Positions 19,311 through 53,900 of a DNA stretch of 64,000 nt are shown here, piece by piece (positions within the stretch are counted from its first letter, which is position 1; each line of letters opens with the position of its first letter). The notes under the pieces were generated by a model, which worked only from the letters and a program-made list of their open reading frames with translations, made no database searches and was not told the DNA's origin. The DNA comes from Centroberyx gerrardi. Its lineage: Eukaryota > Chordata > Actinopteri > Beryciformes > Berycidae. The stretch spans positions 26,796,480-26,860,479 of the forward strand of contig NC_136010.1 of the NCBI RefSeq assembly GCF_048128805.1, in the 5' to 3' direction. The position numbers were made by a program, and so were the translations under genes.

Positions 19311-20056
19311 AATAGTATCCTGGGTTTCAATTAAGAATTTTAGTGTCCTATTATGGTCTAAATGCTTGAGACTTCTATCCTGCTAACTTGTAGTACTTGT
19401 AATGTGGGAATTTTTGGCATATATGTGTGGGAAATATGGCAAATAACCCTAACCCTAACCATTAAAAACAAACAAAACTATCCCTAACCATACTTCAACA
19501 TATCACTCAAAATGTGGAATTTGTGGAAAACAAATTTGAAAATAAAATGCAAACCAAAACTAATGAAACTATAACATATTTGCTCCACATTAATGGAATG
19601 ATTTCATCACCTATTATCACAGACACAATCTACAACGAGAATAAAACACATGATTAAGTCTTAATCTCAATAACATTTGACGTTGTTTTCTTTTTGCTAT
19701 AATCTAAAACATGTTCAGGGAAAACGCCTCCCTCTAAACATGGAACAGCAGAGCCCGCTTTTAGCCTACTATGGTATTTTGAAGGCTTCGAAGCATTCCT
19801 GTCAGTACACACCATGTCTGAGCTCAGAGCTCTAAGATGGCTCCTGAGGTCATGCCACTGTTGGCGGGCAAACATGACAATACACAGACACTTGTACTGT
19901 ACACACACACACACACACACACACACATCACCCACCACCCAAGCAGCACTTAAAAAGGACATATGACCAGCCGTGTTATCATGTGGAGGTGTCAGAATGC
20001 ACTTGAGACAATCTACAAAATGATGAGCCACTGACACCTGACTGTCTGTTGCATGG

Positions 20057-20098
20057 GGTGTGTGTGTGTGCGTGTGTGTGTGTGTGTATATATATATG
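20057..20098 (+). repeat. (TG)n(TA)n microsatellite abutting the nppa TATA box
   Basis: A (TG)n tract with one CG interruption passes directly into (TA)n and then into the TATATAAG used as the TATA box. Alternating purine-pyrimidine DNA of this kind readily adopts Z-form. Confidence 0.9.
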
Positions 20099-20177: not shown

Positions 20178-22410
20178 ATGAGGACAGCGGTCCTATGGGG
20201 CCTGCTGGCCCTACTATGTCAACACACACTGGTTACCAGCCATGTACTGGGAAGATCCTACTCTACCAGTGACCTAGCCCAGCTTAAGGTAAGAAACAAG
20301 ATATCATCCCTCAGAGGAGAGATGCGTTCTGATCTCTTTATCCAGAGACAGCAAGTTGGAAGGTCGTGCACATTAAAGACAGGAGACGCTGTATAGCTCC
20401 ATAGTTAAAGATGTGTATTCTAACGTAAAAGATAAGAACATTTTCTGATTTCACTTTTCTGATGTCTTGGTCTTGGGTTTCTCTGGGTCTTAACTGCTAT
20501 TGGACGTTGACTCAACTTTTTTAGTAAAATCCTACGCTTTATTTAGTTGGATGTTGAAGGGTACAGTACAGAGCTCCCGCAGATAGATCTACATCTCTGT
20601 TCATTCTTCAGAAACTCCTTAATCATTATTTTTGCATTTGGAAAGACGTGTACTGTTTATTGGCAATCTTGGTCCTGGTCTTGACCCCCTTTGGACCTGA
20701 TCTTGACTCGAACTCAATTGGACCTGGTCTTGGAATTAACTTGGACTTACAAATCGTGCTGCTGCAGCAGCAATTAGCAATTGGATCCAGCAAAGAAAGA
20801 TAGTGTATAAATAAGAATAAAGCAAACAGGGGTATTAAACAAATGCAACCGATAATTTCAACATTATAACATGGTACATAGAAATGCATGAATGAAAAGT
20901 ATGAAAGAAGTATGGATTATAGCATTATGAGGGCATGCAAAATAACAGCAGTAGAATATACTTTAAGGAGGATTAGGATATTCTATCATATTAGGATGCC
21001 TCTGCTCCCAATTTATCTTTTACCATAAACAACAAGCACTTGTACCAGTGTTTTGGTAATTGAGAAATGAGAAAAAAATTGTTTGCAATTTGTTATGAAT
21101 GCTAGTGCAAGTCAACATACATATCAAAAAACATATTTAACAAATCATTCCTAAGTTTACCTGTGAAGTAAACCATGTTTGAAACATTGAGTCTAAAAAT
21201 GTGGTGCATTGGGAAGTTTAAGAGATTTTCAGCTGTAGTGCCAACAACAATACTATCAACTTCTGCCTCCAACATCTCAAGAACTAAAACACTGAGAATC
21301 TGAACCATGTCATTAGGATTTAAAAGGGCATAAAGTAACCTAGGACCTTTAGTGAGTTTTGCAGGGCAGAAGTCTCAGCAGATGGCCAAGTAATCATTGA
21401 GCAACAACCCTATCAACCCCCCCGCAGATGGTAATTTTGTGCTATGGGGCAGTGAAATTCTTACTTATTGTTTAATGTATGATGCATGTTTTGGGACACC
21501 TGTAGGTGCAGATTTAATAGGAGGCTTACAGTCTATGTTTGCCAATCAGCATGTGTCTGCTTTGTCCAAAATATGTTGACAGAGTATTGGGTTGTGACTG
21601 CAAAACAACATTCTTTGCTTGAAACCCATCTTCATCTCTCCTTAATAGTCTTTACTGGAGCGATTTGAAGAGACTCTGGCTGAAGCAACGCAAGAGGAGG
21701 ACTCTGAAGCTGACTATGAAGGGACAGACCAAGAGCCTGAGCGCAGCCAGGCCGGCCGAGGATGGAGCTCAGACCAGGAGGGTGGCCAACATCCTTCCAT
21801 ATCAGAAAGACCACAACTGCCAGCTGAGGGCCGCAGTCGGATCCCAAGTCAGAGGAGTCGGCTGCAGGACCTGCTGATGGCCACCAGGAGTCGGTCGTCC
21901 GGGTGCTTTGGAGCCAGGATGGACCGAATCGGAAACGCTAGCGGTCTGGGATGCAACAATGGAAGAGGTAAGACTGCTGCGGGGGATGGTAAAAGGAAAT
22001 CAAGTACGATACTGCAGCATGAAGGCAAAAAGTTTATCCTGATCACATGGTTAGGGAATGTAACAAAAGGAATGACAAAATCAGCATTTGACAAAGGTTT
22101 AATATTAAAAACTCATGTTTTGGCTGGAATAACCTTTGTCAGGGATTTTTGCATGCAGAGTCAACATGCATAGTAACTACACATGCAATCCTGCCACCCT
22201 GATGAAGGCTATTCCAGACAAAACATGTTGGTTTTTAATATTAGGGCTTCAACAATTGTTCTCCAAAGGTGTTTTTCATTCCTTTGGTTGATGTTTTGCC
22301 TTTAGAAATTCTAACAGAACAAAATAACAATATAATTTGAAGCTACTGCAAGACCAAGAATTTATTACAAATTCCTGTGTTTTTTCCTTGTGTTTTTTCC
22401 ATCAGGGTAG
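20178..22410 (+). CDS. nppa: Atrial natriuretic peptide precursor (ANP)
   Basis: Three coding exons: 20178-20288, 21649-21967 and 22406-22410. Junctions are AAG|GTAAGA ... TTAATAG|TCT (phase 0) and AGAG|GTAAGA ... ATCAG|GGTAG (phase 1), giving 144 residues. Residues 1-21 are a signal peptide (hydrophobic core WGLLALLC, ending VTS). The pro-region is rich in Glu, Gln and Arg. The ring [17 protein letters not shown] is residues 123-139 with tail NNGRG; the last Gly is split between exons 2 and 3. A terminal Gly after Arg could be used for C-terminal amidation, as is known in eel ANP, but that is inference. It is the peptide gene next to clcn6, the position of ANP in all jawed vertebrates. An alternative VNP call is unlikely because VNP has a long C-terminal tail. 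Confidence 0.94.
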
Positions 22411-28088: not shown

Positions 28089-29906
28089 TCAAACAGTGAT
28101 GTAGTGCTGTCGGAGTTTGGCCTGAAGGAACTCATGGGTTAAATTATGTCTTGTGATTATCCCAACAATCTGAAAGAGATGGCAAATAAGTGTCTCATTA
28201 GAAACAACATAATCCACTGCACACTAGAGAGACACAAATACAAATCTGCAGGTTTCAGAAAGCCAAATCTAATACTTTTTAACATTTTTATAATGCTACC
28301 TGAAATTGAATGTAAGACCAATTTGGAAACCAAAGTAAAGAAACAAAGATGGCAAAACCCAGCCTATTTCTGTTTTCATCAAGTTCTGGAACTTGATGAA
28401 TGTTCTGAAATTAAAAATTGGCGTATATATAGAGTATAGGAAAACAGAGGATCCCACTCTATAATAACATTATGGGGGAAGCAGTGAATACTTGTATAAT
28501 TTGTGGCATGAATATAATCAAATTTAAATATACTTCTTATCAGCACAAAATATCGACAGCTTCAATCCAAAAATATTGATTTCAGCCTTCAAAAACCAAT
28601 GTCGAATCCACACCTTTATCATTTTGGAATACAACTACTCATTTTCAAAGTGATACTTACTTCTCCCACAGCATTGACCACTGGTAGGTGTCGCAGGCCC
28701 ATGGTCCTGAACAGGTTGAATACCTGGGAAACGTGGGTGTTCGGTGACACCGTGTAGGGACACGGGTTCATGTAGGGCGTGACATCCTGGGAATATGGCC
28801 ATTGGAGAATTATAGCAACAACATCAAATGTACAGACTAGAAAACTTAAATATCCTAAAATTAGAGATGTATACGACACAATAGCAACTGATTTTGTATT
28901 TTTGACTGAATATCAAATTTTTACATTCAAATTGCTCTGTCCTATTCTAATCCAGACAGTACTCTACATCAGTGGTTCTCAACGTGGGGTCAGGGGACCA
29001 CCAGGGGTCCTTGAGGGGGTTGCAGGGGGGTACCCAGTAAATTGATGAATTGTTAACCTTCACCATTATTTAATTTATAAGAAGTTAATACAATTATGTA
29101 GAAGAATGTATTTTGATCATAGTTTCACTGTTATCTCTCTACCTACAATACAGATAGTCATGGAATTCTGGACAAAATCATATCCAACAATAAAAATATT
29201 TAATATTTTGGTCCGAGAGACAAAATCTCATCAAATGGGGGTGTGTGGCTCTAATGTGGACTAAATTAGGGTCCTTGATATGAAAAAGGTTGAGAATCAC
29301 TGCTCTACATAATTAATTGTGAGTGTTTGACAGAATGGGTCTTACCACTATCATGCGGGGATTGAGCAGCGCCAGGTCCAAGTCATGGATGTCAGGGTAA
29401 CGTGGGTAATCCTCAGTCATCTCTGCAAAGGACAATCTGGGCTGAGTGGCGCTCTGTGTTGGACGGCATGGGGAGACAGACAGTTGGATGTAGAGAATGA
29501 CAATTAAAATATGTTAGACCAGGGATTCTTTACAAACACACCCTGAAATGTGCCCACTCCCTTCCTCAGTGGCCTTGGTTCCGGAAGTAAATTTCCCATT
29601 CATTTAGTCCATAGACATTTCAGAAAATCCCGGTGTAAAGAGTTTGAAGCTTTGAATTGAACCAACCAGTGCGAATCACGGCAAATGAATCACAAGCTTT
29701 TAGCAATAGATACAGAAACAAGTGAAAACTGGCTTAGTGGTAGTTTCAAGCTCACCACCTGTTTTGTCTATGAAGCTGACAGGTTAAAGTATCAAACCCA
29801 GGTACCCAAGTATATCAATTGTACATTCAAAATTTCCAATAATTCCCAACATCTAGGCTAAGCTAATAACATCACACAAACAACAAAAATCAAGAAGACC
29901 CAAGGC

Positions 29907-29957
<51 letters not shown>

Positions 29958-32900
29958 CTCCCCTTGAATGTCTCTCCATAGATATTTCAAGTCTAACCGC
30001 CACTATAAGTGGCTCCTTTAAAAATAGGAAGATGCGTACAATAATACTACGGAGCTCTAAGGCAAACACAAGTTGTAGAAGCAAGATCCGCAATTCTAGA
30101 GTGACACTGCGAATGAAGTCAATTCCCTTTCCCTGTGGTTACGCAGTGTTGTTGTAACTAAGAGAATCCCTGAACAAAATATTTAATTCATGCGTAGACT
30201 ATCAGCGCAAAGTATCAGCTATCGGCAGCTTCACACCTCACTTCTAAGTTTGTGTGACTGACCGACTGGTTCTCGGCGTAGCAGACCCTCCGGATGAGCA
30301 GGTTGACCAGCTGGGATCGTAGGATGAGGCCATGGAAGGTGAGCGGTCTGAAGCGCTCCTCCATGGTCCACTCCTCGCTGGGCGACTGGTCGGGGCACAG
30401 GTTGGGGTAGGGCGCATGTCTGCACATGGACAGCAAGAAAGACACAACAAACAAGCGAGAGTAAATAGGTTAACATGTCACCAAATCATACAATAATGTG
30501 GAAATAAGAATAACGCACATATCGTATCATAAATTAGACCTGCTCATGTGCTTCACAATATATAGTGTGAGTAATGGCTGTGTACAACGATACAATGGCT
30601 GCTTTGGCCTGTTAGAGGATGCTGCCAATCCACTAAGCAGAGAACGAGTTTGATTTTTCTGGCCCATGATGATGATTGGTGTTTATGTCCATTTCACCTC
30701 CGGGGCTCTGTATATTCGAACTTGGGCGGCACCAAATAACTGCACTGCGGGTTCCGGTGCTCTTCCAAGAGTGAGTGAGAACATAATCTGAACCAACTAC
30801 AGGAAACGACCCCAGAATGCAAGGTTTTATAGGTATAAAGTGATGGATGTTGACATCTGATAGCCAGCAGTTCCTCATACTTGGAAAGCCTCCCATAACA
30901 GCATAACAGGCCACAACCGCAGTCTGTACTGATGCTCATATTCAGCCATTTCTTAATGTGTTCTCACCTGGTGTGAAGACCAGAGATGATAAATTACAGC
31001 AAAGAGCACAGACAAGTCCATCATGCTTAGCTTAAATTATAGGGACTGGAATCAGATTTGTTTAATCTTTTTGTTATGGATTAATTCTTGGTAAACTGTA
31101 GACACTGTAGCGCCAAAAACCAAACAAACAACGTTCAAAGTGGCTTAAATCAGCGTCTTGTCCATTCTGACGTTTAGTGAACAGTAACTGAACCTCTCTA
31201 CCCTAGCTGCATGCTTTATACTTATGCTTTATTTATGTGTGACTTTTCCATTGGAGGTGCAAGCTGTTTGCCAAAACAGAGAGGTATACCTAATAAAATG
31301 GATACTGATTGTGTGCGTGCGTGTGTGTGTGTGTCTCCCCTACCTCCTCTCTAACATCTGCTGCAGCATGTCCTCTCCCTCCTCAGCGGGCTCCACCACT
31401 GCGGCCTGGTCGTCACAAACGTTCCTCAGTTCGCTGGACGGGTACGACTTCATGGACTGGCAGCGCCGCCGCTGCTCCCCGGCACGCGACACAACACTGG
31501 ATTTCTACACGGAACAGCAGGGAGTAGGTGTGGACTGATATATTGGTTTGCTGTGACGGAAAAGACTTTCACATTGAGCCACGAGACGCCGGCCCACCCG
31601 AACACGCATGGCCAAACTGAAGACCATTGTTTGAGATAAGTGACATGAAAAACAATTCCTACCGTTTCAAATGCCTGCAGTATTCCGCATCTAAAAAATC
31701 TGTGTTCCAAGGAGTCACCCTCAAACTCGAGAAAGCAAGCTGATATCACGTTTACCAATAATCACTTTAATATGTGTGTAGTGTTCCTATAGAGACAAGG
31801 TCAACTAGGCCTCTTCGCTTAAATTTGACTTTGGTGCTGTATCACCTGTTAGGAGAAATAAAGAAGGCAAAGGCAAATCATTAGGGTCTTCTGGTGAATT
31901 CGGGATACAAGTGATCCAGAGAACAGCACTTTATTTCAATAAAATCTCAACTTTTGGAATTTATTCACACTGCTCGCTACCACCCACTAGGATGGAAGAA
32001 GATTAAGGTATAACAGGCCAACCTATTCTAAAAGTTGAAACTTAAGTGAAATAAAGTGCTGTTTGATGTATTGGGTGCATTCCAAATTGAAGAGTGAATA
32101 CCAACGACTCATAAATGTCTGAAGTCATGTTCTATGAAGTGTGGATGTTTGCTGAGAAACATTACATTACCAGATTATTGAATGGAGTTTGGTGTGACGT
32201 TCGGGGCCAGGGGCATTCATACTTTTACTCAAGTAATGGGTACAGTCACCTGTGTGATACTCTCTGACTTATTTCTGTCACTTATTTCTGTTACGTGAGG
32301 CTGGAGTCAGCCCTTCTTAACATGGTCCTCTATATCCCTCTACTGATGATAGGGTGCAAGTGCTTCCCTATACGACAGTGGTTCTCAACCTTTTTGGCTT
32401 GTGACCCCTTAAAACAAAGCGATGTCCACTTGTGACCCCAGTCACAGGCTGCATATGGAGAGAGGTGAACAGTTTAACCAAAGAATGATTTTCCCTTTTC
32501 AGGTTGTTCCATTTGATTAATTATCAGAGTGGGCCTAGAGGCCTAAACTATTCAGCATTTCACAAGAAAAAAACAAAAAACAGAGAAAAATTATAAAAAA
32601 TAGGCATGATAATTCATTTTTATGGTAGAAATGTTTTTTTTCCTATCCCATAAATCATCTCGTGACCCCCCTAAATGATCTTGCGACCACCTGGGAGTGC
32701 AGCAGCTATTTTCTGCCCCATGAGATTTGGTATTGATTCATTTTTTAATGTCTGGAACTGTCTGGAAAAAACCTACACATTGAAGGGGAGTGGACTGCTC
32801 CACCTCTGCTTAAAAAAAAAAATTTTCCCCATGCCCACTGTTGCAATGTGGCTGTGTGGTGGCAGGGTGTATATAGTCATTAGAGAGATGTCAGTGTGTC

Positions 32901-33218
32901 CATCAACAGCCATTTGTCCTGCAGAAGTGTCCTTCAGCAAGACACTGAACCCCTCCTCATTCATTGTAAGTCCCTCTGGATATGAGCTGTCAGCTAAATG
33001 CCTAAAAATGTAAAAACCGCATGGGACGTACCTTGAAGCGGATGTTGTTGCTGACCAGGATGTTGCCCTTCATGAAGTCCCGTTCATTCTGCCGGTTTTC
33101 AGTGACCACAGGGAAGGCGTGGTAGACAGTGGTACGCAAGATGCTGACCAGAGACTGGACTCGGGTATGGGGGTAGACGTAAGTAAGGTTGGGCTCCATG
33201 ATATCACTGGCCGTCAGC
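28089..33218 (-). CDS. clcn6: clcn6 exons 18-23: cytosolic CBS domain pair
   Basis: Exon 18 33032-33218, 19 31344-31504, 20 30263-30419, 21 29346-29453, 22 28661-28786, 23 28089-28169 (stop TGA at 28089-28091); residues 592-864. CBS1 starts at [20 protein letters not shown] in exon 18. CBS2 spans exons 21-23 ([20 protein letters not shown], then [13 protein letters not shown]). Exon 19 codes the variable linker rich in Arg and Glu. A CA repeat begins 9 bases inside intron 19. Confidence 0.95.
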
Positions 33219-36200
33219 CTTTGAGGGACGTGGGAGTAAGATGTTAGGGTTCACCCAATATTGGTTTTTGAAGGTCAAGACTAATACTTTTGGATTGAAG
33301 CTGCTGACACTGAATGTCTAACAATTACCTATAGGAAAAATTAGGGCAGGAGCTCTCATTTTGCTGGTTTCTTTCAATTCTTTTGTATTCTGTCCATTTT
33401 TCTTTTAATAGGAGCCATGCTGATTCTGTTTCTGCCTAATTATGGTGGCCTTCCTCAGCAGAATGGAGGTGACTGAGGTCATTTTTCACAGTTGAGTGCT
33501 GTCCCTGCCCTAACTTTCCCTTCGGGTAATTCTTTGACTGTGATTGGTTTGTGGCAAAGCACCCTGTCAAAATTAGGAGAAGCGCATTTGATTTATCTCC
33601 TTCTGAGTTGATATTGAGTGTCTTTAAATTTGAATATTTCTATGCCAAAAAAGTCCAGAAAATTCAGAATTCAGTGTTTCCACCAGAATCATATTCTTGT
33701 CAGGGTGGAAAAAGCTAATAATAATAACATATTCATGCATACTTGTGTGGAATCCAATCAAATATTTTTACAATAAATCGAACAAGTTGCATCATATCCA
33801 CCATATCAGAGGAAAGGCCAATATTGGCAAACCAATGTAGACACAGTATATAGGTATAAAGAGAGAGACACAGAGAAAGATCATTTGTGATTGCAGTAAA
33901 AAAAAAAGGCATTTTGCCGTTTTTTAAATTACTATGGTAATTATGGTGGGACGGTAATTGAGCTTCAGTCAAGAGGCGGAGCCAGGAGTGGCCCATTGGT
34001 ACAATGAGGTGCCCCTGCACCTAATTAACCTTTCTGTATATGGGTGCACTCTTTTCAGGGCACCCAGTACCCTCCCAGTAACTTTATGGGCAGACAGCGG
34101 CAAGGGCGCAGAGTACTGCCATAATTGTATAAGCTGGCGGCAGCAGCAAAACAAATAAAACCCCTGACAGATGGAGTGAGAAGTGAAATGTAGTTTAATT
34201 TACATCTAGTCTAGTCAATCTACATCAGTACGGAAACAAGGCTCACTACAACTTTTATTTGAAAGACTACAGGAATAAACAATGCTTGGAGAACATTTGC
34301 ATTGGTTGATGGTTGAAGCTCTTGAAGTAAGGAGTGAGGAGTTTTTTCTGTTTATTTTTTTATTAATGCTACCTAACGTGTGCTCGCCAGCTAGCTATGT
34401 TAACTCATCACAACAATGTAATGTTATGAAAGGCAATACAAAAGCAGCAAAAAATTACATGATTTGCCTGTTCAATACTTTGTAGCAGCAAACCGCTACA
34501 CAGATGCAATTGGAGCCTCTTGCACCGCTCACACTGCTGATCATTCATGCCACTGCTGCTGTTGACCAAAGTCAATGCAAACTCCCTCAACCTCCTCCTG
34601 CTATTATCTGTACACAGGATGCTTGTGCAAGCTATCTCTGAATTATGTCTGGTTTTATGTTGGTTTCCATATTATTAAATGATATATGTCTACTATGCCT
34701 AGGGGGGTTTATTGCGCTCCCCGCAGAATCGCTCGCTTGCTGCTTGGATTCATTTGGGGAGCATCCTCAACAGCAGAGCCTTTTCCGCCAAATACAACTG
34801 CATAACCATTTGTGCTACAAATGGTCCAAACTCCTTTGACGTAAGTGTCTCTGACTGAAATGTCTTACTTGTCCATCTCCACCTCTGTCTCCCACTCCAG
34901 CAGAGGCACTCCTCTCAGCTCAATGTGGATATCGTAGATGCCTTTGTTGAAGAAATCTCCTGTCCACTTGGCAACCTGATAATATCACATAAACCCAGCA
35001 TGTAATACATTAGTGAATGATAGACTACTCGTTTGTCAATGAATCTAGAAGTTTCTCACTATTGATGTAAGACAAAAAGGGAAAGCTATAATGAAGAAAT
35101 AATGACAGCATTTTATCATTGTTGGAGTTGGAATCATCTGAACATGGAATCATCTTAAATGACAGAATTAACAGACAATGACTATAAAATATGTTGAAAT
35201 AAATAAACACAACACTTCTCGTTATACCATCAGCGTTATCATGATGGGCAGTCCATATGTGATTTCATTGGTGGATTCAATGAGGATGACAGTCAGACTG
35301 ATGGTCATCCTGACCACGCCCCCGAGGAAGGAGGCTGCTCCAATCAGAGCAAAGGTCCCAGAGTAGATTTCCATTCCTAGGTTTCTGACATATGACAGAC
35401 AGACAGTAAGAACCAGTTAGGAATGTGGAGGTCACTGGATTTTTTACACCATCACTCAAAACAAAGTCAATGGTGAGCAGGCGGATGGGGAAAACATTGT
35501 ATGACCTATTGTGAATAATTTCCCACCAATTACCTTTGAGTATGGGAGGTTTACAAACATGTATTACATCCTGTATTTTTTCCATTCATCCACAGCATGA
35601 ATGTATGATGAGAAAAGTGGCCGAGGGAAACCAAACGGGGGGCGAGGGAATGCACAGTGAGAATGTCGTGCCTGGAGTGCATAAAGACCCTGGCCAACAA
35701 GCTGTCACCCACAGTTATTAGGCATGGCTGCAAGATGGTGAGGGCTAACAATCATTACTTGCGGCTGAGCAGAGTTCAAAAGCATGGCTGTGACAGCAGA
35801 GGTTGGCAATGGAAATGGGTCAAAGGCTACGTTCACACTACAGGTTCCCAAATCATATTTTTTGGCCTACATGTCAGACAGATCTGATGTTTTCAGAGCA
35901 GTGAGAACACCAAAAAACACATGGAATCTGATATTTTTAATTCCGATTTGGCCTACAGTTGTATGTGGTCCTAGATCCAATACATATCTGATACACGGCA
36001 ATACCTAAGTCTGATTGGTCAGATTTGTGTGGTTTTTGCGTCACACTCCACAGCGCAGATCCTTGTTGTCATTACTCTGCGTTGGCGCACTTCGGAAAAA
36101 GATGGAGGACAGCAACAACGATGGAAGTCGAAAGGCAAATATTCCTTAAAATGAACGTTTCACGGTCACTTTTCAAACGTGAATGAGAACAGTTAAAACA

Positions 36201-38897
36201 AAAAAGAAAATCAGATCCGAGAAAAAAATTGGAATTGAGCATTAAGGCCTTTAATGGGAACGTAGCCAAAGAAACCAGGAAGAAGAATAGAGTTGTAACC
36301 AGGGTTTGACCAATATGAGTTTACCAATATTTTTGATCTAGGGTGTGAACGATATGGGTTTTTGAAGGCCAATACCAATATTTTTCAGACTAGGGTTAGA
36401 CTGATATGGGTTTACAGACATAAGATATAAGGCCACAAACATAAGAAAATAATGGCATAGGACAATAGCAGTAGGCAGAATGGTATCTCTGAATGCACAA
36501 CTCATGTAATGGTCAGAGAAGGGCTATAGCAGCAGATAAACACCTAGCACTAGATGGGTGAACCTAACAAACTGGGTGTATCTTATAGTGTAACATCTGG
36601 TTTATGGAAGTGTTTAACTTTGAGATTTGCTAATTTCACGACAATGTACTTCCAACATTTTGAAAACATCCCCAGTGGAAGATATGTATGTTTGTGTTCC
36701 AACATTTTCACATTGCACATTTAAATGGGGTCCCACCCATTACTAAGTTGGAGCACTTCCATGACCTAAAATGTTCTTCATTCCTGGTTTGTTAATGTTG
36801 TATTTTTTAAGGGGGGAACAGTCCACCATCTAATAAAATGAATGTGTTTGGAAAAAACATTCTGCTGTATTCCTGTGAAGTGACATATTTGTAATATTTC
36901 CTGATAGTCCCTGACTTTCCCTGTCTGGAATATCTCCATATGCCATGATATTCCAGAGATTTCATGGAGGAATCACCTCCGGTCTCAAAAATTGGTCATT
37001 AGAACAATATGAAAATGCTTGTCTTACATTTTGAGGAGGTTGGCTACCAGACGTCCAAACGACGCCCCACACAGCAGTGCTGGGACAAAGAGACCACTAG
37101 GTACTGACACACCGTAGGTCCAACAGGCCAACAGGAAGTACAGCAGGAAGAACACTGACAGAGTCACAGGGCTGAAGGTACCTATGGGGAAAGGCAGTTA
37201 GCCATTCATTATGACCAGTCACTGAGTAGTATATTCCCAACTCAAGTAGACCAGATAACAAAGACTGGACACGAATAAAGTCAGACCAGATTCAAAGCCC
37301 CATTCTGAGATTTTCTGAGCGTATCAATTATGGGCATATGTCTTGAAACGTAGGACTTTCTGGTGGAAATAAACAACTGTGCAACTGTCAAATCACCTAG
37401 GACATGGGATGGTGGGAAGGAGTGCTTTAGTTGTCGGTGGAGGAAGAGGCATTGGCTGACAGAAATGCCCCACCTGCTCAGACCATTGCAAATTGGCTTG
37501 AATGTAGATACCCAGGATCTTAATGACATCCACTTTCTCCAGTTCAGTGTGGTTAATTGATCGCACTGGGGGATGAGGGAGCTTTGTAGTGGAGTAGCAG
37601 TGAATGATCTTACTCTATTTTGGGTGTAGCACCATGGAGCTCTAAGTAGACCACTTCTCCGGACCAGTAAGAACATGTTGAATGGTGGATGGTGAGCACA
37701 GCTGCCATATCTCAAGCAAATTGAGGTCATCAGCAAATTACCAGCGTTCGGCTGATGCGTCTGCACCATTGATGTAGGCTATGAAGATGTGAGGGTATGT
37801 GAGGGCCTTGATATGTGGCCATCTGATTTCCATTAGTAAGGAAACCTGCCATCCATCTTGCAAGGGATGGACAGACAACGCGGTTCAGTAGCCTTATTAT
37901 TGCCAGACCGTGGTCAGCACGATCAGAGGCTTTACTATAATCTGTGACGAGAGAACAGATGAAGCCAGGTTTGTCAAGAGACTTCGAAAAGATTAGTCAG
38001 GTCAAGAAGGTAGTGAGTTGTAGATCAGTCTTGCAGGCATCCAAACTGCTGGGTGTCAGTTAGGGGGAGGATATCACTGAGGGCCCACTGGAAGATAAAG
38101 CTCTCCGCTACTTTAGCAAGGAAGGACAAAAGAAATATGGGGCGTATTTCACTTATGGGGGGAGGTTCGGTTTTGAGTATTGGGAGCATAGTCGTTGCTT
38201 TCCATTCATCAGGGATGATGCCACCCTTTAGTGAGAGGTTAAGGATGTTGACTGGAGGGCCACTGAGTTCGCAGGTGGATTCCTTGATAATCCTCCCACA
38301 GATGCCATCAGGTCCGGCTGCCTTTCAGTCCAGCCTCCCAGGGCTGATGGTGCTGGGTGTGCAGGGGTTTTGTTTTCGCATATTGTCAGTTCTTGTACCA
38401 AGTGCTCAGTAAATCAATTTGATTTAAATTAATAATCAGTGACATTTTCATATAGATAACTGTCCAGTTTTCTTCTCTATCATTAATTGACACAATAATG
38501 ATTCAACCTATACTCAGTTCATGAAAGCTTTCACATTTGCTGTTCTAAACAGCCGGTGTTGGGTAGGTCTTTCTTGGGAAAAATCCTCTGGCAAACAGGA
38601 AGTGATGCGTTTTACGTTTCCGGTTTGTTTGTAATAAGTAGAAGAAGAACTGGGTAGTTAGCATGAGCAGCAATAGCCACCATGGCTGAACTGCATCAAC
38701 AAAAAATCAAAGGAAAAAAAGGTCACAGTACCAGCCACACTGTGCGAAGCAAAAACACCACAGCAATGAGCGCTTAGCACCAAAGAGACAAAAAAAAACA
38801 ACAGAAAAAAAAAATTGGCACTTAAAACAATGTCTTGTAGTGCCAGTCATGAGGAATTCAGGGGGAATTTCAGAATTTCAGGCTTTAACCAACATAG

Positions 38898-38950
<53 letters not shown>

Positions 38951-41900
38951 AGTCCATCTCACCATCCTGGTGGAAGAGCTGGTAGATAGCAGCCTCCTGG
39001 GGGTTGAAGAATAATGTGGCCATGTCATTGTAGGTCTTGTTGGGACAGAAGAACTGGCGGATGGTAGAGTTGATGTCCTCACTGCTAGTCATCTGAAGAA
39101 AAAAAAACACAAAACAACAATTTCCGTATATGTCTTCGAGCTCTTTATTTCAAGAACAATGCAGTGTTACTTCATTCAGCAAGGTGTGCCAGTACAGCAA
39201 GAAATATGCCCCCAATGCTAGAGAAAATGAAGGAAAAAAACATCATGACTTATTATGACCAACTCCCCACATAACATGCAACAAGTAATGCTCAACATTA
39301 CTGCTTTTATTATTATTGGAGAGTAAATAAGGAGAGTTAAACTGGGACCAGAATTAAAAACCCAACTTAAAATACTCCACTTCTACAATAAAAGATGAAG
39401 AACTGGGAGGAGAGGCAGAAGTTTGCATCATAAGTTTTTACCTTAGCCAGACCTGTTATAAGAAAACTGATATTGAAATCCTGATATCCAAAATGCTGGC
39501 CACGATAGCTAGAGAGTGCTGGGTGTGGCAAAGGCAACTTTTTAGCCAGTGTTCTCGAGAAAGCTGCACTACGAGCACGAGCGGTTCTCGAGAAAGCTGC
39601 AAGCAGCAATCGGCCTATTCCGGACAGGCACGTTTTGAACAGGCACTGCACTAGTTAATCCTAACTTTGCAACATGGTGTTGAAATATGCCATTTGATGG
39701 ACATTTATTAAAAACATCTTACAATTCCATGAGTGAACACATATTTTAGTATGTATATTTTAGTCATTTTAGTATGACCGGACCACAGTGGCAATTGAAC
39801 CCCTAATCCTCACAGTTTTAGTGCTATGCTTAACTCAGCTATGCAGGACCATATGATGAGCTGATGAATGTAAATACTAGGAATGGGTCATTAAACCTGA
39901 ATATGCACCTGTTTGCCTGGGATCAACGTTGACTTTTGTAATTTGGTCATTTTTTTAAATAGTGAGATGCGAAGATTAAGAGATTAAAATAATTTGATAG
40001 TAACAATGCAATGATTAAATGGCTGAGTAAGAGCTATGGAGTACACCAGCCACTAGGGGGCTTCTGGTGTCATTTACAAAACCCTTTACCTCTCTTTGCT
40101 GTTGTTTTGTCCTCATCTTCCGCTAGCTGCTTTCACTAGCAGTCTTTATCAAAGCCACACTAAAGGCTAGCATGGGCAAACTGTAAAGTCAAGGACAAGG
40201 TAGCATGGCTCCATCCAGCTATTTCTTCCGTCCAGGAAGATGGAACTAGCCAAACTAGCACGACAACATTTGAACTGAGAGTGCGGTCACGCCTACAGTT
40301 CATTTTCTTTGGTTTGAACCAGAGTGGGAAAGTCTACATTGTTTCATTTTTGTATTGGTTCGTTTAGGTTCACACTGCCTAACTGCAACTGAATCACGGC
40401 TTGTTATCCCACTACATTGGACTCCAGTCCCTGTGACTTCACATGATGGACTTGTCTGTGGTCTTTGCTATAATTTACCTTCTCTGTGGTGTTCATGCAC
40501 ATGAATAAATAGCCGAATATGAGTAGGGTTTGCCCTTACTTCATTTTGTTATGCTAGGCTTTCCAAGCATGAGGAACTGCTTGCTGTCAAATGCCAACAT
40601 CAGTTTCCTTATACTCATAAAACATTCCATTTTGGGGTTGTTTCCTGTAATTGGTTAAGATTATGTTCTCACACCTAATGAACAGCACCGCAGTTCACTT
40701 GGAAGAGGACTGAGACCTGCATTTTCAGACATCTCGTGCAGTTATTTGGTGCCACTTGAGTTCAAATGGCATTGTTCTCAACTGGCTAAACAAAGAGTAA
40801 ACACTCCACTGCTTTAGCCATTGTACATTTTGGCAAGCACTGAATATTTGAATATTCGAATAGTCATTTGGAACATGCACTGAATAGTAAACCATGTGAA
40901 AATGGACTTATACACATCCCCACTACATACTGAATGTTGTAGAAGAGAGGAGATGCTTACCAGTGCTGTGGTGTTATGGGTTGTGGGGGAGGCCAGGTCA
41001 CGACATTCGCCCAACGTCATGGATGCCACAAATATCACCACTGTTGTCACCATGGTGACCAACAGACTCTCCAGAACCCTGGAAAAGGGTGGAGATCATT
41101 GTTATTATAGGTTTGGATTTTTTATTAGTTTTTATTTTTATACAGTTTTCTAATTTATTTCAATTTCAGTTTAGTTTAAGCTAATTTTCAGTGTTGCTTT
41201 GTTTGCTTGATGTTTAGTTTTAGTTTAGTTTTTAATTTGTTTTCATTCTAGTTTTAGTATTTTTGGTAGGGATGGTATTTTCACAGGTATAATTAAAGAA
41301 GTTCAGAACAGGTATTATGTAATGCAAACAATACATTTAAAAAAAATTAATTAAAAAATATTTCCATAATTTTTTCGAGACATGCTCAACTAATGTAAAG
41401 TTGGTACCACTTGGCTACATGCTGCACAAATGAAATGCATTAGAAGACTCAACAGCTCAAAATAATCTCAAACAAGACTCTGGCATTTGTCCCAAGTATT
41501 TTCAACATGAGTTGGGCAAATGGCAATGGCATTGGTCATGCCGGCACTTCCTTTGAGAGCAAAAGGTGCTCGGGGGCCTAACAAGTCAATGTACAAGATT
41601 GCCAAGTTTTCAGGTGAGTTTTTTCAAAAAAAAGTGGACGATAAGGAGAAAACGTAGGACCCACAACACTATGCTCCACTGCACCTTTATTCAAAAATAT
41701 ATTTTTGGTTTCAAAAATCCCTTTGGATGTTGAAGAGAAGGTTGCATGCAAAGGGAGTTCTTCATTAAATATTTTGTTATTCATTCATTTAATACATGAA
41801 GTCACATGATCCGGTCAATTCTTACAAATAAATGCAAGCAGTTTTTTACCATATCTAATAAACTTAGATCAGGGATTCTCCAACATTTTCATGTCATGGA

Positions 41901-44900
41901 ACCCCAAATAGAGGAGCCATGGACCCCCATTTGATCAGATTTAATCCCATAGGGACCCATATTGTTGGTGATTTAGTACTGAATTGTGGAACTGTCTACA
42001 CTGTACATGGTGAGGTAACAGTGGTGAGGGTGAACCCTATGATAACCAGTCATTCTTGTACATTCTCTAATGGGGATCATTTCTGGTAAAATTAAATTAT
42101 AATGAAATTAAACTGACCCCCTGATTAAAAGAGAATAATTACATGATTAAAATGACATGATTAGAAAAGAAATGGTATGAATATTTCACTGTAATAACCT
42201 TTAAAGGGGCTTTAAGTAAACTAATACCTCTATCAACCTCTATTGGTGACCAGCAGGAACTGCAATAACATCAATAGATCTTATCTCTTCCTAGACATGT
42301 CTCTGGCACCCCCTCCCACACATCCACCACACCACCACCCCCACCTGCCAGACATATTAGTACCTGACCAAGTAATCAGTGAGTCATTGGTATTGATCTG
42401 AATCTTTAACAAAATAGGATGATACCCTTTTAAGAATGGAATACATTAATCAATTGAGGGCCTATGTGTGTGTGTGTGTGTGTGCATGTGTGCTTGTAAT
42501 CACCTAACAAACTTGGCCTTGGGGTGGATATGTCTGATGCGATACTTGGCCAGGCTCTTGTTGATACAGTTGAAGAGCGCCCCCAGGAGGCCGCCCACCA
42601 CGCCCATCAGGACAAAGAAGGCCAGGTCCACTGCTGTCCACAGGTGGCAGTTCTTATCACCATCTGGACACTGGGGATTGACCAAGGTGTTGTTTTATTG
42701 GGGTTGAACTGACATATCACTGTGTCAATATATCAGGCCAGTGTTTGCCTTTTGTTAAAAAAAAATATGATTGATATGACACCAGATTCCACACAAGTAT
42801 GCATGAATATATTTTATTATTATTATTTTGATCCTGGGTTTCAGTGGTGAGTTTAACATGTTTTTACACATTTTACATGAAAACAGTCAACTTTAAAGAT
42901 ATTGAATACCTGCACAGAACATCGGCAGTTTTAATTCAAAAACTTTGGCATCGGCCTTCAAAAACCCATATTCGTTGAACCCTAGTGTGTATGTGTAATG
43001 CACACGTGCATAAAAACATGTACGCAAGATGGAGAGCCACAATCTCACATTATATTCTTCACACAAAAAATTGAGAAATGGCATCAGCAGTAAATCAGTG
43101 GGTTTTACCTTGAACTCTCCAAAGTTGAGCAGGCCGGGGAGCTGGAAGGAGCCCCACTTGTTAAAGTTGATTCCCGAACGGAAAAAGTTGAGGGTGAAAG
43201 TGGCCGACATGGAACAGAAGAGCTGGGGAAGGGAAACACAGTTCATCATACTTGATGCTTAATACTTAATGTTATCCATTTTCGAGACTGTAGAAAATGG
43301 CATTCTCACTGATAGATTGAGGCAGTTGGCTGGTATTTCAGGGACCGCCCTACATTGGTCCTCTTCCTATTTGACGGATATAAAATTCCTTGTGTCTATT
43401 GAAAGCTATATACACAGTCCTTGATCACCTATGGTGTGCCACAAAGCTCAAATCTTGGACTGATTTTATTCTCCCTGTCTATACGCTTCCTCGGGGTCAC
43501 TTAATTAGGTGGCAGAGCATCTCTTTCCAATGCTATGCTGATGATACCCAGTTGTATCTCTCAGTCAAACCGATTGAATTAACGAAGTTGGGCTCTCTGC
43601 ATAACTGTTTAGAAGATGTAGGACTCAATGTCAAAAGACTTAAATTCAGACAAAACACAAGTCCTCATTATAGGTCCTGAGTGCACTTAATCTGGCCTAC
43701 CCTTGGTCCTCTAACTCTGCAAATTAAGCCTGCCTCTAACACCTTAGGAGTCCTATATTTGACCCGAGCCTTAACCTTGAGCAACATACCAAAAAGCTCT
43801 TCTAAATTTCCTCAGCTCTGTATGAATTGTGCCCACTGCATTCCTATATGCGGCTGCATAGCTAGCATAAATTGCTGCACTGTCATTTTCCTCATGCAGT
43901 GAAGGACTGTGATCTTCTTCTGATCTTCTTCCAATCTTCGGTTCGAGTTTCTAAAACGCAGCCATTGTTTCTCATTGTTCTACCTGTTTAATTTATGTCA
44001 ATTATTCCTATTTATTTTCCATGGTTGTGAAGCACTTGAAATGTGCTATATAAATACTTTTTTTTTTTTCTTCAAATTGATCACTGCACAGTGTTTCTGA
44101 CACATGGTTTTGTACAATAATCAGACACACCCACCACACATAGGTTTCCCAAACTGAAACAGTAGCACATTAACAATCAGTGTTGGGTGGTACCCTGTTT
44201 CTCAGCAAAGCATTACAGTAATGTCATTGCTTCCCCCACTAATGAAGAATGTAACAAATTACTATTTAAATTTCAGTAATAGTATTACAGTTACTGATCA
44301 GAAAAGCTGTTCATTTTGTTATTGCCTCCTCTAATCGTCCTCTCAACTGAAGCTAGCTTTGACAAGTAATGGTAAAAAAGTTGACTTTCTCTGGGTGTAA
44401 GTATTCCCACTACTTGAGTGAGAAATTGGAAAAAAATTGTCTGTCTGGTGGAAGTATTCCCATTACTTTGATTTTCTCCAGTAAAAGGACAACAAGAACA
44501 TTGGACATCAACATCCAGATCATTCACAGGAGAGGAAACTGACTGATCCTGATTTTGGAAAGAAGAGAGGATGAGTAATGGAAAAGTAATATAGTAGTGT
44601 AACAAATTACTGTTCCAAGAGATTCATATGTAAAGTAATAACATTACTTTTGAAATAAGTAATGAGTAGTTGCCTGGCCCACCTTACTACGACTACAAAC
44701 AATACAAGGCCACTGTGGGAAACACTGCTATGAATTGGCAGATAACTGAGGGACACAAAGTGAGGTAAAATTGACAACTAAATTGAGTTTGCAGGGGGAA
44801 CAGAAATGTCCTGGCCCTCTTGGAGCTCACTGGATAAGGTGACATACCACTTTCCAAGTGAGGGCCTGGTTCCAGAAAGAGGAGCCTTCCTCCAGACTGA

Positions 44901-47900
44901 AGAGAGTGCCACCTATGGGAGCACCGAAGGCAGCAGCCACTCCAGCAGCAGCCCCCGCTGACACAAAGTCTCGCTTGTCCCTGGAGAACAGGTTAAGAGA
45001 ATGTGATGGGCAGCACAGTATGGTACAGCACATAACTGTCAGTTACAGTCAAACTCCACTCTCTTGTTCCAGCTGCTCCACAGAGTGTTTTTATTTTAAA
45101 AAAGGAGCAGAGGGGAAAGTGTCTGGACCAGATTCATCAATATTCAATATCAATATCAATATACAAAGTGTCACTTTGGTAGTTTTTTCACTATGTACAC
45201 ACGCAAAAAAAGCTGAGCTGAAACAAACCGCAATACAGCAACAAACTTCAGCCAAACACTAAGTCTGTCTACTGTCTTTATATTTCCAACAATCATTCTG
45301 CAGTGCATTGTTAAGGAAAATTCCACTGATTCCTGTTACATATCATCAATCTGTGATGTTAAATGCGTTTCAGGAGTTATTTTACTATTTTGATGTGCTC
45401 CCTTTCCCTCAACCTGCCTCTTCTACTTCTGTTAGTGATTTCCTACATTTCCCAGAATGCCTCGACAGCCCCAAAGAAGGGGTGTGAACTTGCTGCATTT
45501 AGCTGTGGGTTATGCATGTGATAGCAATAGCAGAGCGAGGGTTTTTCCAGTAGAGAAAAAGTGAGAGTCACACCCCTTCCTATAAATACAACATGTCTTG
45601 TGGCTGCATTGCATTGTGGTCTATTGAGGCTACTGTCGATGGAGAAATTGGTCTCTCTGCCTCTTCTACGATGGATTTCTCCCTGTATGATGGATAAACA
45701 TTGGTGCAAAATGGTGGCTTGAATGGTGGAAAGAAGCCCTCGCTCTTTGATTCTGACTGAAACCAAAACCGGACTTTTACCTGATTTGATATCAAATGCC
45801 ATTGTAGCTGCACTGCAAATATCATGTAACATCATCAAAGATAATGGAGAAGGAAAGATACTGCACATGCTATTACAGCTATAGAAACCCTATAAAGCAG
45901 AAACATGTAGAGGTGGGGAATTCATCTTTCACAAGTGTACAACTGTCTAAAATTCCAATATTATCATATTACCACACCTGCTAAACAAAGAAGTTTCTTA
46001 CTAATTTAAAGTATGGATCTCATGTCAGTATCCGTAGTTTAGCAAGACCTTATACTGTCTTGCCTAAATCAAACAAGCCGCATGTAACAACGCATTATGT
46101 AATAACACCCGCATTTTGTAATACACAGCCTGAATGCAATATGTAATAAATTTCCCCACATTTTATAATAATTTATTACATATTGCAGCCCACTCCCACT
46201 TGACCTGAGAGGCCTGGCAGGAGTGTACTCCTTAAACATGTCTGTAATGTATTTGGTCCCACTCCATCTATTGATTTATAAACAAGCAGCATTGCCTTAT
46301 ATTCAATTCTGTGGCTGACAGGAAGCCAGTGTAGTGACTTAAGAATCGGGGTGATGTGGTCTGACCTTTTGGTCCCTGTAAGAACCCTAGCAGCTGCATT
46401 TTGAATAAGCTGAAACTTTTTGATGGTCTTTTTGGGGAGCTCTGTCAAAAGACCATTGCAGTAGTCTGCTAGAAATAAAAGCGTGAATGAGTTTTTCCAG
46501 GTCGGCTTTTGACATGAAGTCCCTGAGTTTGGCTGTATTTGTAAGATGATAAAAAGCTGATCTTGTTACTGCTTTTATGTGGCTATTTAGACTAAGATCA
46601 GAGTCAACTATAACGCCGGTCTAATTTAATATTTGGGAAGTTTAATTTAGCTTAATTGTTAAAAATATAACATGTACAGATGAAGACATCCATTTTGGTT
46701 GGTTATTACATAATGCACTGTATTATTACATTTTCATCATAAAAAAAGTGCAACTCCCGCATTTTGTAATAACCACCGCAATATGTAATAATTTATTACA
46801 AAATGCGGGGAAATTTATTACATATTGCGTTCAGGCTGTGTATTACAAAATGCGGCAGATTATTACAAAATGCGGGTGTTATTACATAATGAAGTGAAAA
46901 TTTATTACATTTTGTCGTGTTATTACATAATGCGGTGTTATTACATAATGCGTTGTTACACCGCAGAAAAAAGATATTGGTCTGAATGTGAAACACTCAT
47001 TGACTCCCAGTCAAAAAAGAAGTATTTTCAGTGAAGACGGGGCAAAATCAAGTGAGACCAATCACTTCGCCTGTATGCTGTCTGATGTCATGTCGAGTAC
47101 ATTTGGCCAGTTATCCACAGAAATAAGAATAGTTTACCAAAATGGGCCCAGAAATGCAAGGTATACATTGTCAACGCCTGTTTTTTTAACAGTGTTGAAG
47201 TACTTTAAGGTGGATATTTCGTTTTACAATATTTTGGTGTGTGTGTGTGTGTGTGTACAACAGCCATACCTGTCACAGCGGAAGTAGGGGAAATCGAATC
47301 TTATCTTCTTAAAAGTGATGCTCTGAAACTGAGGAAGGTAATATCTGATGAGTGCACTTAAGCCATAATGGGACCATTATTGCACTTATAAATGAATCAT
47401 TCAATAAATCAATAAGCTTTACAAATCGCCAACCAGTGGATGTCGACCATTTGACAGTGGAATCAACTAAATGCCACTCGTGATATACTGTATTTGATAT
47501 TACACACTTGATATAAGCGAATCTCAAAGTGAACTCTAAATCTAAATACTGATATTTCAGATAGTGATCATATGGGTACAAGAATACATGTGGTGGTAAT
47601 AATCACATGACGGCTGCAGATGTATGTGTGTGATCTATTCTACACTGTTCATGGCACTTTGTTGGTGTTCAATCCAGAATGTGTGGCTCTGTACCTGAGG
47701 AAGCCCGGCTCCCACAATGGCTCCACTGTGTATCATTGGACCCTCCTTCCCCACAAAAAGACCTGAGTGAAGACACACAGAGTCAGTGGCACTGCCCACC
47801 CACCTACTGATCACTAATGGTGACTCATCAGTCACAGGAACTCCGTTTCATTTTCAGTATCACATGATCATCAGTGTCCTGGTAAAACCTGGCATTTCCA

Positions 47901-50900
47901 ACTGTGCCATTTTGAACTTGGTTTTTGGCAAGAAAAAGGTCAAATTCAGCAATATTGAGTATCGGCACAAATTATCAGCTCAGTCAGTCACTTCAATCCA
48001 GAAATACTGGTATTGGCCTTTAAAAACATATATCTGTCGAATCCTACTAAGAATGCTTTGGAAAATATCAAAATATATACATGTCAATGAAAAATGTGTA
48101 CATTCTCAATTTCTGAAAAGCTGACTTTGTCGAGCTACAAGGTTTTTCCAGGACACCTGTAATTTTATAGCCAGCAATTTCAGTTTACATGCACACAAAA
48201 AATGTGCAAGTACAATGCAAGTAAGGAAGGACCCATGTAAACACCACACTGATTATGTTGTTGTCATTATGCTCTTAGTTGGAGTAGTTACAGTAAAATA
48301 TGTAGAGTACTTCAGCTTTACTGGCATTAATAGGGAACAGTCAGAACATGTGTACACCTTCATATCACTTTTGTAACTTTACAATCATGTAAAAGGCTTA
48401 ATCATACTATTGTGTTAATGGGAGCATTGGCAATAATCGCATTATTGTGTGCATGTAAATGTAACCATTCTCACTGCCCTGACAGGCTGTACATCCCATT
48501 GATCAGGTGACAGAAAACAGACAAATGCCCTTTGCGTCAAATATCTGTCAGCTGATAAATATATAACCATATTATAATATCGTACACATTTGGCAGTATA
48601 CTACATACTATACCTCCAGCAACAGTGAACAGGACTCCAACAGCCTTGCAGAGGAAAGTGCGTAGTCGGACAATCCCGGGTATCTTCACTCCGTTCAAGT
48701 AGCTTTTGATTTCTGGGATCCCAGAGCCTGCAGCTACCGGCTGAATAACGGCAGATCAAAAGACAATAACATGTTGTTATGATCCCATGACTCAGTATGA
48801 TATGGCTCTATCTAATAGCACATATATATTCTGAAAAAGATCTAGGACCATTTTGTCCCAGGAAAATGCTTAAGAGTTGGAAGAAATGGTTTCAGGCCAT
48901 TTTCTAATGACTTCACAAAACACATGGATAGATGTGGAACGTTTATGCGAAACACCCGAGATGTGAGTGTGAATCACTTGATTATGAATTAGATTTATTG
49001 TTCTCTTATGGGGCACCCACTGTTAGCTTGAGACATACCACAAAATAAACTTTGGTAATGTTATAAAAATGAATAAATCTACAGAAATAAATACATTTAC
49101 AATACTGTACAAAATTCAGAGACCAGTCTTTCGTTTATTTAATTTCCAGTCAAAACGGCCATTGAGTGCAAGTTATTTATTTTTCAGTGTCAGAAAAAAA
49201 ATGCAGGAAACATATATTTAGCACAAAATTACACAAAAGCCTCCACAGTTAAGCACAATATCAAATTTTTCAGTATTTAGTGTGTCCACCCTTTGCCTTT
49301 ATTACAGCTTCCATTCTTTTCAGGAGACTTTTTCCGATCTGAAGCAAGAGTGGAGTTCGGTGGTAGTTTCGGTACTCTATCAGGTCTTACACGGTTGTTA
49401 GGATTCCCATTTTCTTTACATCTTGCAATGTTTTTTCACTAATTTTCCTTTGACTTTCACCTTCCTTTTGCAAGTGTATTATCTTATTGTATTGTATTAT
49501 CTTATATTGTATTATCTAATCTCAATCTTATATCTAGTCTCATCAGAAATATCGCCTTTAGCCATTTTAGATGCACATGAGAAAGAAATGTGCAAAGCAG
49601 CTAAGGTGTGTTTGGGTAGTTGTTTGTGTGAATGTTAGTGATGCTTTTGAAGGGAAAGTGTGCTAACAATGTCAGACACTTTTGTTGGTTTTAATATTGG
49701 AAGGATGGAAGAGTTAAAGTGGCAGTAGGGTGCACAAAAGTAAAGAGTGGACAAATTAAATCATGATGATATAAATCCTGATCTTGATATGATACTTAGT
49801 GTTGGGGCCTTTTGTGTAATTTTTTTGTTAAATAAATGTGTCCTGCATAACTGAATGGCCGATTGACTGGGAATTAAATAAAGAAAAGTTTGGTGTCGAC
49901 TTTTACACAGTACTGTACATATAAGCCTATTTTGTCCACAAAATGAAAATGGAGTTTTCATATTCATCCACAAAATAAAATTTCACAAACTGAATTTCAG
50001 GCACGAAAAGAATTACTACTTACAAAAATGCATTTCATGCCACAAAATCAATTTGGTGCACAAAATTCACAAGGTAACAGTTGGCACAGTTTTTCCAGTT
50101 TGTTATTAAAGGATAAGGCCGGTGTTTTTTAATGCATTGCTTACCGTCAACAAATCCTATGAAAATAAATTAATTTGTTTTGCCAACAAGTCTCGTCCAT
50201 GTAGCTGGTGCCCAAAGAAGCCATGTCCCAGCAGCCATAGAACTCCATTGTATTAAAAAAACTATTAAAAACACGTCAAAGAGCCATGCCGTTGCTCTGG
50301 GCAGCATATTTCATCATCACGATGCACCGGGCCAGCCGACATTTTCCTCAAACAACTTAATAAGCCGGCTGTAAACACTTTGCGATCTCAGGAAAGTAGT
50401 TCCATAGCACCGAAAATAGTCCCCGGCGTAATGAAGAATTTGTTCCCATTTGAATTTGATTTGGTAATAACTACAACAGTCTGACTTTTCATGGTCAGTT
50501 AGCGATTTTTAAAATTGAAACTATGTCTTTGTGAGCTGTATTTAAAGGTTTTTAGCTTACAATTGGAGCCAATTACTTCCGGGTTGAAGGCTAAAAACGG
50601 TACGTGGGAAGTCAGAAAGTAACGGGAGTAGAGCAAACGCATTGTTGATTTTGTTATTTTCATAGGATTTGTTGACGGTAAGCAATGCATTAAAAAACAC
50701 CAGCCTTATCCTTTAACAAAGTTTGTGGGTTAAAGCTGCACAAGGCAACTTCACATATTGGCGGCCCCAAATGGCCCCCAAATCCTGTAAGGTGACGTCA
50801 TGTTTACCAAACCGGCCAGACTATGATGCTTTATACCAAAGATATCAAAGGGACGAGAGAGACAACACGCGTTTTCAACTTATGAATTTTTCTCTTCCAT

Positions 50901-53900
50901 ATTAACTTTCAAAAAAAATAAATATGTTTGATTTAGATCCTGTCGCCCACTTCAGAACAATAGTGTGATGACACCCACAGAGTTCCTGGACAGGAAACGT
51001 ACATGTGTGTGGATGAAGTGAAAGCATGTAAAAACATTGGTAAAAACATGGATATCGACAGATACTGGTAAGAAAAGTTTGAACCTGCTTTTTTCAGACA
51101 AACCATGCCAAGGAAGTGCTTCAGAGAAATCTTGCACATCCACACTGTTTATTTCTTCTTCTTATTATTATTCCTATTATTATTTATACTGTGTAATACT
51201 GCAAGATGTAAGAGGAAGTGTGAGACGGGTATGTTCGTAAAAACGCATTCCAAGAAATCCATGCAGCAAATGCTTACTCAAGCACTTTTGGCGATGTGCC
51301 TATAACATGTTGCATAATCAAGCAATGGCTTTGCCTACATTTTCCACCTGTATATATTGGTTGTGTTGTTTGGGAACTGGCAGCTTCGATTCAAAAATAT
51401 CAGTATCAACCCTGAAAAATATGATGTCATATTGTAAAACCCTACTCAGCAGCCTTACCTCGATGAGGACGAGCACACTGGCAATGAAGACGAAGGTCAT
51501 GTTGAACGCCAGAAGCTCCAGGAGAGAAAGAGCAAGACAACCTTTCTCACTGCACTCCTCCACAGCTAGAAAGCTTTGGCTAAGGTAGAGAAACCACCAA
51601 CATCGTGGAGAGTTCTTTGACTTTAGAGCTGCAATTCATAATGTTGGTGTCAATGAGTGTATTCACATGCACAAAGTATTCTGGAGAGTTGCTCTTATCC
51701 TGTTTATATGCATCTCTACATCCCAATCACCTCCTGTATATCAGTGATTCTAAACCTTTTTCATATCAAGGACCCTTAATTTAGTCCACATTAGGGCAAC
51801 AGACCTCATTTGATGAGATTTTGTCTCTTGGACCCAAATCTGAGAATATTTTTATTGTTCGATATGATTTTGCCCATGTTCCATGACTATCTGTATTGTA
51901 GGTAGAGAGGTAACAGTGAAACTATGATCAAAATAGTCATTCTTCTACATTCTCTAATTGTGTTAACTTCTTGTAAATGAAATAATGGTGAAGTTTAACA
52001 ATTCATCAATTTGCCCCACGTTGAGAACCACTGCTGTATATCACTGTATACATCAAGAATCAGAATATTCTGAATATTACCATTCAACATGTGAACTCAC
52101 AGAGCGAATGCTGACCACAAAACAACAAAAAAAAAGGATATAAACATGCCTCAGTATCCTGGCTAGTATATCCTAGTTATTATTGTATTTTGAGATCATG
52201 ATCATAAGAGCTTCTGCAGATCATTGGATATAATACAATGTGATATTTACATGAGCCAACTCAAATCAGAATACCCGAGCATCCTGAATTGTAGCGGCAT
52301 ACTGACACTGAAGCGCAGGGGAATTCCGTTTCACATGGGAAGTTTCTGGAGGCGTTTTAAAGGATACAATTTCCGACCAATGTGAATTTGAGATGGGTGA
52401 AGAGGCGTACAAAAAAGTCCACAAACAGGCCCATCTGAAAGAGACGGGAAAATAGAATTCCCTGTTTATTTGCAGCATGTTGTATTCGGAAGCTGTATAT
52501 TTATTTAGCAAGAAAAAACACAAGATATCACAAAAGCACGTACCAGACCAACCGTGACTCCAATAGCGAACACCAGAATCCACCGCACAGCTTCATACTT
52601 TTTGGCTTTCTATTGGCAGACGAGAATATCTTCATATAATCATGCGACATAAAACACCCAGAACCAAGGAGATTTCAACAGAGTAAGCATTATGATAAGG
52701 TATGGATCTTGTCACGCATGTATAATAACATAATAGCATATAATAAAAAAATGCACAGAAAAGAATGTGATTGGTCTATCCGAGAGTCATTTCAATCTGT
52801 CATTATCAAACACATTTGTTATGTAGGCAATGTGTAAATGTGTACATGTTTTGACCCATTTGGCTTTCCATATAGGTGGGTCTATAGTTTTTGACTTACA
52901 CCATTTGCTTGCACAGTTGCTGATCTGTACATACTATATTTCTGCACAGTCTCTGCATATGAATCAGTACATATCATTGGACACTTTTACAACACATGTA
53001 GTTGCACACCTAGACATTTTCTTTAAATATGTATGGCCTTCTACAGACCTGCTAATGAATATGAGCACATTTTACACATCCTGTACATATATTGTAAATT
53101 CACATATTGTTCTTTATACTCCTATTCCTCGCATTTGTTATATATTGCATACATACACTACCAGTCAAAAGTTTGGACACACCTGATTGAATGTACTGTT
53201 TTTCATGATCTTAAAGCCATTTTGATCTAAAGGCTTATGATTAAATGCTTGAAATGAGTTTCTTGGACAAATATAAATAGTGAAGTTGATGCCTATGTAT
53301 GAATTTCTTTCCAAAGCCTTTGCCTTTCCATCAAGGCAAAGGGCGGCTACTTTAAAGAACCTAAAATATAAGATAGTTTTGATTTGTTTAACACTTTTCT
53401 GGTCTAGTAACTAGTCTGGTCTTATTTGAACTATTTTACTTTTGTGAAGCACTGACTTTGCTCTGTGAAAGGTGCTATATAAATAAACTTTTCTTCTTAC
53501 TACTTTACCCCTCCCCCCAATATGCTTTATTCTTATTTGCATTATATTTTTCTTTGCTGTATCCCAGAACAGTTTACTGCTGCAATAACCCAATTTCCCA
53601 ACAGGCATCAGTAAAATTTCATGTTATCTTACCTTGTTGTCCATTAACTCCAGAACCTCCACGTAGGGCTCATTGATGCAGCGGTCATAATCCAGGCTCT
53701 ATTGAAGCAAAAAAAAAGGCTGTGTAAGAATTTGAACACAAATTTCTAATAATATTAATGTATCCCAGGTGCATTAACCCATTAAATAAGGAGAGCTTCA
53801 TTGTAACTCTCCAGATGAGGGTTTCTCACAAGTTTCTCACCTCATAATCCTTCCTGGGTAGAATCTCATCTTCTTCATCTCGGATTTCCCCAAGGATTGC

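Follow-up and report, generated by a model that had tools for sequence, protein, structure and literature searches.

Sense-strand CA tracts close to the donors of four clcn6 introns in Centroberyx gerrardi

Four introns of the clcn6 gene (introns 9, 12, 14 and 19) carry a CA-dinucleotide tract on the sense strand shortly after the donor. The place, length and orientation of these tracts and their non-random closeness to the donors were established within the window, the whole stretch of 64,000 nt that was analysed. All four tracts named in the original prediction were present, and its 3' ends for exons 9, 12, 14 and 19 (47270, 42504, 38963 and 31344) were matched exactly by a rebuilt clcn6 model. 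The gene and its tracts are as follows.

28089..56866, minus strand: clcn6 coding region, 23 exons, H+/Cl- exchange transporter 6, from tblastn and PDB-chain alignment
47237..47256, minus strand: CA tract of intron 9, 20 nt, starting at +14 from donor GTATGG
42464..42495, minus strand: CA-rich stretch of intron 12, donor GTGATT, wider limits set by eye
38901..38949, minus strand: CA tract of intron 14, 49 nt, starting at +14 from donor GTGAGA
31310..31334, minus strand: interrupted CA tract of intron 19, 25 nt of which 14 nt are pure, starting at +10 from donor GTAGGG

Counted after the first intron base, by subtraction, the tracts start at 13, 19, 13 and 9 bases (introns 9, 12, 14 and 19). 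The predicted range of 9–14 bases therefore holds for introns 9, 14 and 19 but does not fit intron 12, because its pure CA part (42465-42484, 20 nt, from +20) begins 19 bases after the first intron base; the sequence nearer the donor is CA-rich but impure. The clcn6 gene was rebuilt by tblastn with a human CLC-6 sequence as the query. Splice sites were picked by reading frame, similarity and site scores, starting from hand-set anchors, and the boundaries of intron 22 were adjusted by hand. Residues 2-864 of the resulting 864-aa protein aligned almost end to end (1669 bits) with residues 2-869 of 8jpj chain A. The record name of this chain is H(+)/Cl(-) exchange transporter 6 (CLC-6), and we take it to be the human protein. 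The host gene of the four CA-flanked introns is probably a fish chloride-transporter gene.

Other features of the gene and of the window were observed alongside. The donor of clcn6 intron 5 (51566-52367), GTATCCTTT, resembles the U12 type of the minor spliceosome and is the sole such donor among the 22. In the same intron, TACCTTAGC ends 13 nt before the exon and matches 7/9 positions of the branch-point consensus. Among the papers listed by a literature search for minor-spliceosome (U12-type) introns in CLCN6, none contained CLCN6, and a search on truncated ClC-6 isoforms found no paper. A region of intron 14 (37300-38400) is repeat-like and has, by eye, the look of a decayed retroelement; a Pfam scan of this degenerate repeat gave no match. 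The plus strand encodes two natriuretic peptide hormone cores (CFG...DRI...GC) at 15369-15419 and 21904-21954, the latter with a Pfam ANP match. At 19901-20087, roughly 130 nt separate an AC tract from a GT tract with which it could form an inverted repeat. The pair is followed directly by a TATA-like stretch and by what is probably the first exon of a natriuretic peptide gene (ATG 20178). An mthfr exon (62595-62843, plus strand; Pfam MTHFR, E 1.6e-21) lies head to head with clcn6, and 63187-63321 gave a weak Myb/SANT match. Scans of the whole 64-kb window for Rfam families (at gathering scores) and for tRNAs gave no match. An orthologue search in a set of viral contigs, in which fish genes would hardly be present, also gave none.

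The placement of the tracts was compared with chance using CA/TG tracts scoring at least 16, of which the window holds seven, and a donor zone of +6..+30 at each clcn6 donor (550 of 64,000 positions in all). Four of the seven tracts begin inside the donor zones. When all tract positions were rotated together, at least four fell in donor zones at 15 of 64,000 offsets (P 2.3e-4). Under independent placement the probability was 1.9e-7 by formula, with 1 in 1,000,000 by simulation, and 9.6e-7 when tracts in clcn6 introns alone were counted (4/5). A genome sample of 20 unannotated stretches of 10 kb, taken at round coordinates on ten contigs, contained 87 CA/TG tracts of at least 14 nt in 200 kb (0.435 per kb), a density in which interrupted tracts may be counted more than once. 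The window is sparser, with seven pure runs of at least 14 nt in 64 kb. At the sampled density, 0.12 (sense CA) or 0.24 (either strand) tracts would be expected in the donor zones, against four observed; the Poisson P for at least four is 7.8e-6 or 1.1e-4, respectively. All of these clustering P values are post hoc, as the cluster was chosen by eye before testing. Within that limit, the suspicion that four of 22 introns is non-random was borne out against both the local and the sampled genome density.

The preference for CA over TG on the sense strand is less clear. All four donor-side tracts are indeed sense CA, as had been claimed, but with n = 4 a two-sided sign test gives 0.125 (hand arithmetic), and by eye a TG tract was seen beside a donor in a different CLC gene of this genome. 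In this clcn3/4/5-like gene, which has an upstream exon with a match to exchange transporter 3 (E 1.2e-43), donor GTCAGC at L008:2575 is followed by a TG tract from 2597 (about +23, by eye); TG next to donors therefore seems to occur. The TG tracts of that gene (L008:2575-2710) lie in the intron after one with TAACCCTAA-like repeats, which are degenerate and were seen by eye at L008:1900-2060. At the other 18 clcn6 donors, positions +7..+30 hold ten CA and ten TG tetramers, without a CA excess. In the 200-kb sample, a donor-like site at threshold 2.8 lay 6-30 nt upstream of 4/87 CA tracts, compared with 3/87 at 206-230 nt and 5/87 when the tracts were read as TG. The corresponding numbers were 3, 3 and 4 at threshold 3.8, and 2, 2 and 2 at threshold 5. 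This comparison in unannotated DNA has low power, and the small sample does not support a genome-wide link of CA tracts with donors. No paper on exon-boundary microsatellites or CA repeats in teleosts was found in a literature search.

AC and GT repeats were reportedly predicted to be fish intronic splicing enhancers by Yeo et al. 2004, and the original abstract of Lin et al. 2016 is said to give 10% of genes with (AC)m-(GT)n introns. The enhancers of Yeo et al. reportedly share with clcn6 the AC repeats beside splice sites; clcn6 differs in having long microsatellites at 4/22 introns, while its other 18 show no CA-over-TG excess. PMC9024468, PMC6093180 and PMC9198270, which cite Lin et al. 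2016, describe a zebrafish intron class in which AC repeats lie close to the donor and GT repeats close to the acceptor; an intron of this class folds across its length and does not need U2AF2. Such introns are stated to make up about 10% of all zebrafish introns (PMC6093180), and AC- and GT-rich tracts are reported in fish and lamprey (PMC7404189). Like the zebrafish introns, clcn6 introns 9, 12, 14 and 19 carry an AC repeat on the sense strand shortly after the 5' splice site. Unlike the zebrafish introns, they are without GT near the 3' splice site and form no bridge. Over the final 150 nt of each of the four introns, GT runs reach no more than 3-5 nt, and over the whole intron 5-6 nt; therefore, these are not (AC)m-(GT)n bridged introns. 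The four tracts are in keeping with the wider concept of AC repeats on the donor side, which has already been described for fish introns.

Intronic CA repeats of the eNOS type are reportedly bound by hnRNP L (Hui et al. 2003). Like the clcn6 tracts, the eNOS-type repeat is said to be intronic, sense and downstream of the donor; the clcn6 case differs in comprising four introns of one gene and in being known from sequence alone. HnRNP L-responsive repeats are marked by CA in the sense transcript close to the exon under regulation, and the four clcn6 introns show CA in this position. That such repeats are bound by hnRNP L, as originally proposed, agrees with PMC12767766, where CA in RNA is a known ligand of hnRNP L and the bound protein either activates or represses splicing. 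Two predicted tetrapod clusters containing CA repeats, D.IE.14 and A.IE.9, appear in PMC2777938, and we read them as donor- and acceptor-side intronic enhancers. In human, longer AC repeats bind more HNRNPL, according to a preprint (PMC13174678). Among possible readers of the clcn6 AC repeats as intronic elements, hnRNP L would be the likeliest.

We tentatively favour, at somewhat short of even odds, the reading that all four tracts belong to the donor-side CA microsatellites found in fish introns and that hnRNP L-type binding would let them influence exon definition modestly, independently of donor strength. In the pre-mRNA, hnRNP L or a related protein would bind the CA tracts. Once bound, the tracts may mildly help or tune the definition of the upstream exon, whatever the strength of its donor, and a helpful effect would let them be kept, or at least tolerated, beside donors. 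We speculate that GU tracts at the same place would provide decoy GU donors and that CA could be the favoured orientation for this reason.

Ranking close behind this exon-definition effect is neutrality, a serious but somewhat less probable account: this genome is rich in CA repeats, which arise widely, four donors would have been hit by chance, and the cluster would have been picked after being seen. The sampled density, the even CA and TG counts at the other 18 clcn6 donors and the low-powered 200-kb comparison, in which donor-like sites were not enriched next to CA tracts, all agree with neutrality, and the long pure tracts may resemble recent slippage. Against it, P remains 8e-6 to 1e-4 even at the genome density sampled, though post hoc. 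Compensation of weak clcn6 donors by CA repeats through hnRNP L, the role originally proposed, is improbable. In its favour, PMC12767766 reports a correlation between hnRNP L-dependent regulation and alternative exons whose 5' splice sites are weak. Donors were scored with a weight table, and intron 5 was excluded as U12-type, leaving 17 other U2-type donors for comparison. The CA-flanked donors scored 4.4, 2.8, 4.7 and 3.8 (introns 9, 12, 14 and 19) against a span of -1.9 to 6.8 among the other 17 and were not weaker (one-sided P 0.59), nor were they weaker by U1 duplex energy (P 0.92). The lowest-scoring U2-type donors (introns 7, 8, 16 and 20) lack long CA tracts, with CA runs of at most 6 nt in the first 66 nt from base 7; intron 8 has an 8-nt CA run at +63. 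Weak-donor rescue was rejected on these grounds. Three of the four donors had been said to deviate from GTAAGT or GTGAGT; in fact all four do. Across the gene 21/22 donors deviate, with GTAAGT in intron 22 alone and GTGAGT in none, and such deviation is therefore the rule in clcn6.

Bridging, in which each CA tract would pair with GU repeats close to the acceptor of its own intron and replace U2AF2, is very unlikely. The donor-side position of the tracts matches the zebrafish class as described in PMC9024468 and PMC6093180, but the four introns have no GT partner near their acceptors, and these acceptors look ordinary and pyrimidine-rich by eye. Bridging within the intron was rejected on the GT runs of at most 6 nt. 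Scarcely credible, to the same degree, is the idea that the CA tract keeps the donor clear of RNA structure. Predicted folding favours it in intron 12, where just 5/100 random intron replacements gave a donor that was equally or more open. For introns 9, 14 and 19, however, 59, 27 and 19 of 100 replacements were predicted to do so, a GT replacement was about equally open in introns 9, 12 and 14, and the CA donors as a group were not predicted to be more open (P 0.20). As intron 12 alone stands out in folding, donor accessibility was rejected as a general effect.

One long GT tract does occur elsewhere in the gene.

29908..29956, minus strand: sense GT tract of intron 20, 49 nt, at +307 from the donor and 455 nt before exon 21

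The longest GT run in each other clcn6 intron is 4-7 nt. The tract is able to pair with the CA tract of equal length in intron 14, and predicted duplex energies of the GU tract with the four donor-side CA tracts range from -37 to -98 kcal/mol. From such modelling, it could conceivably be a docking site for any of the four upstream CA tracts, so that blocks of exons, for example 15-20, would be looped out and alternative or circular clcn6 RNAs formed; we consider this the most far-fetched of the readings.

As the CA-flanked donors are not weak, it is no longer donor rescue that is in question but whether AC repeats on the donor side have any effect when they lack a GT partner. Should the tracts influence splicing, the length of the repeats at the four sites in this one gene would offer natural variation with which to test the control of splicing by AC repeats in fish.
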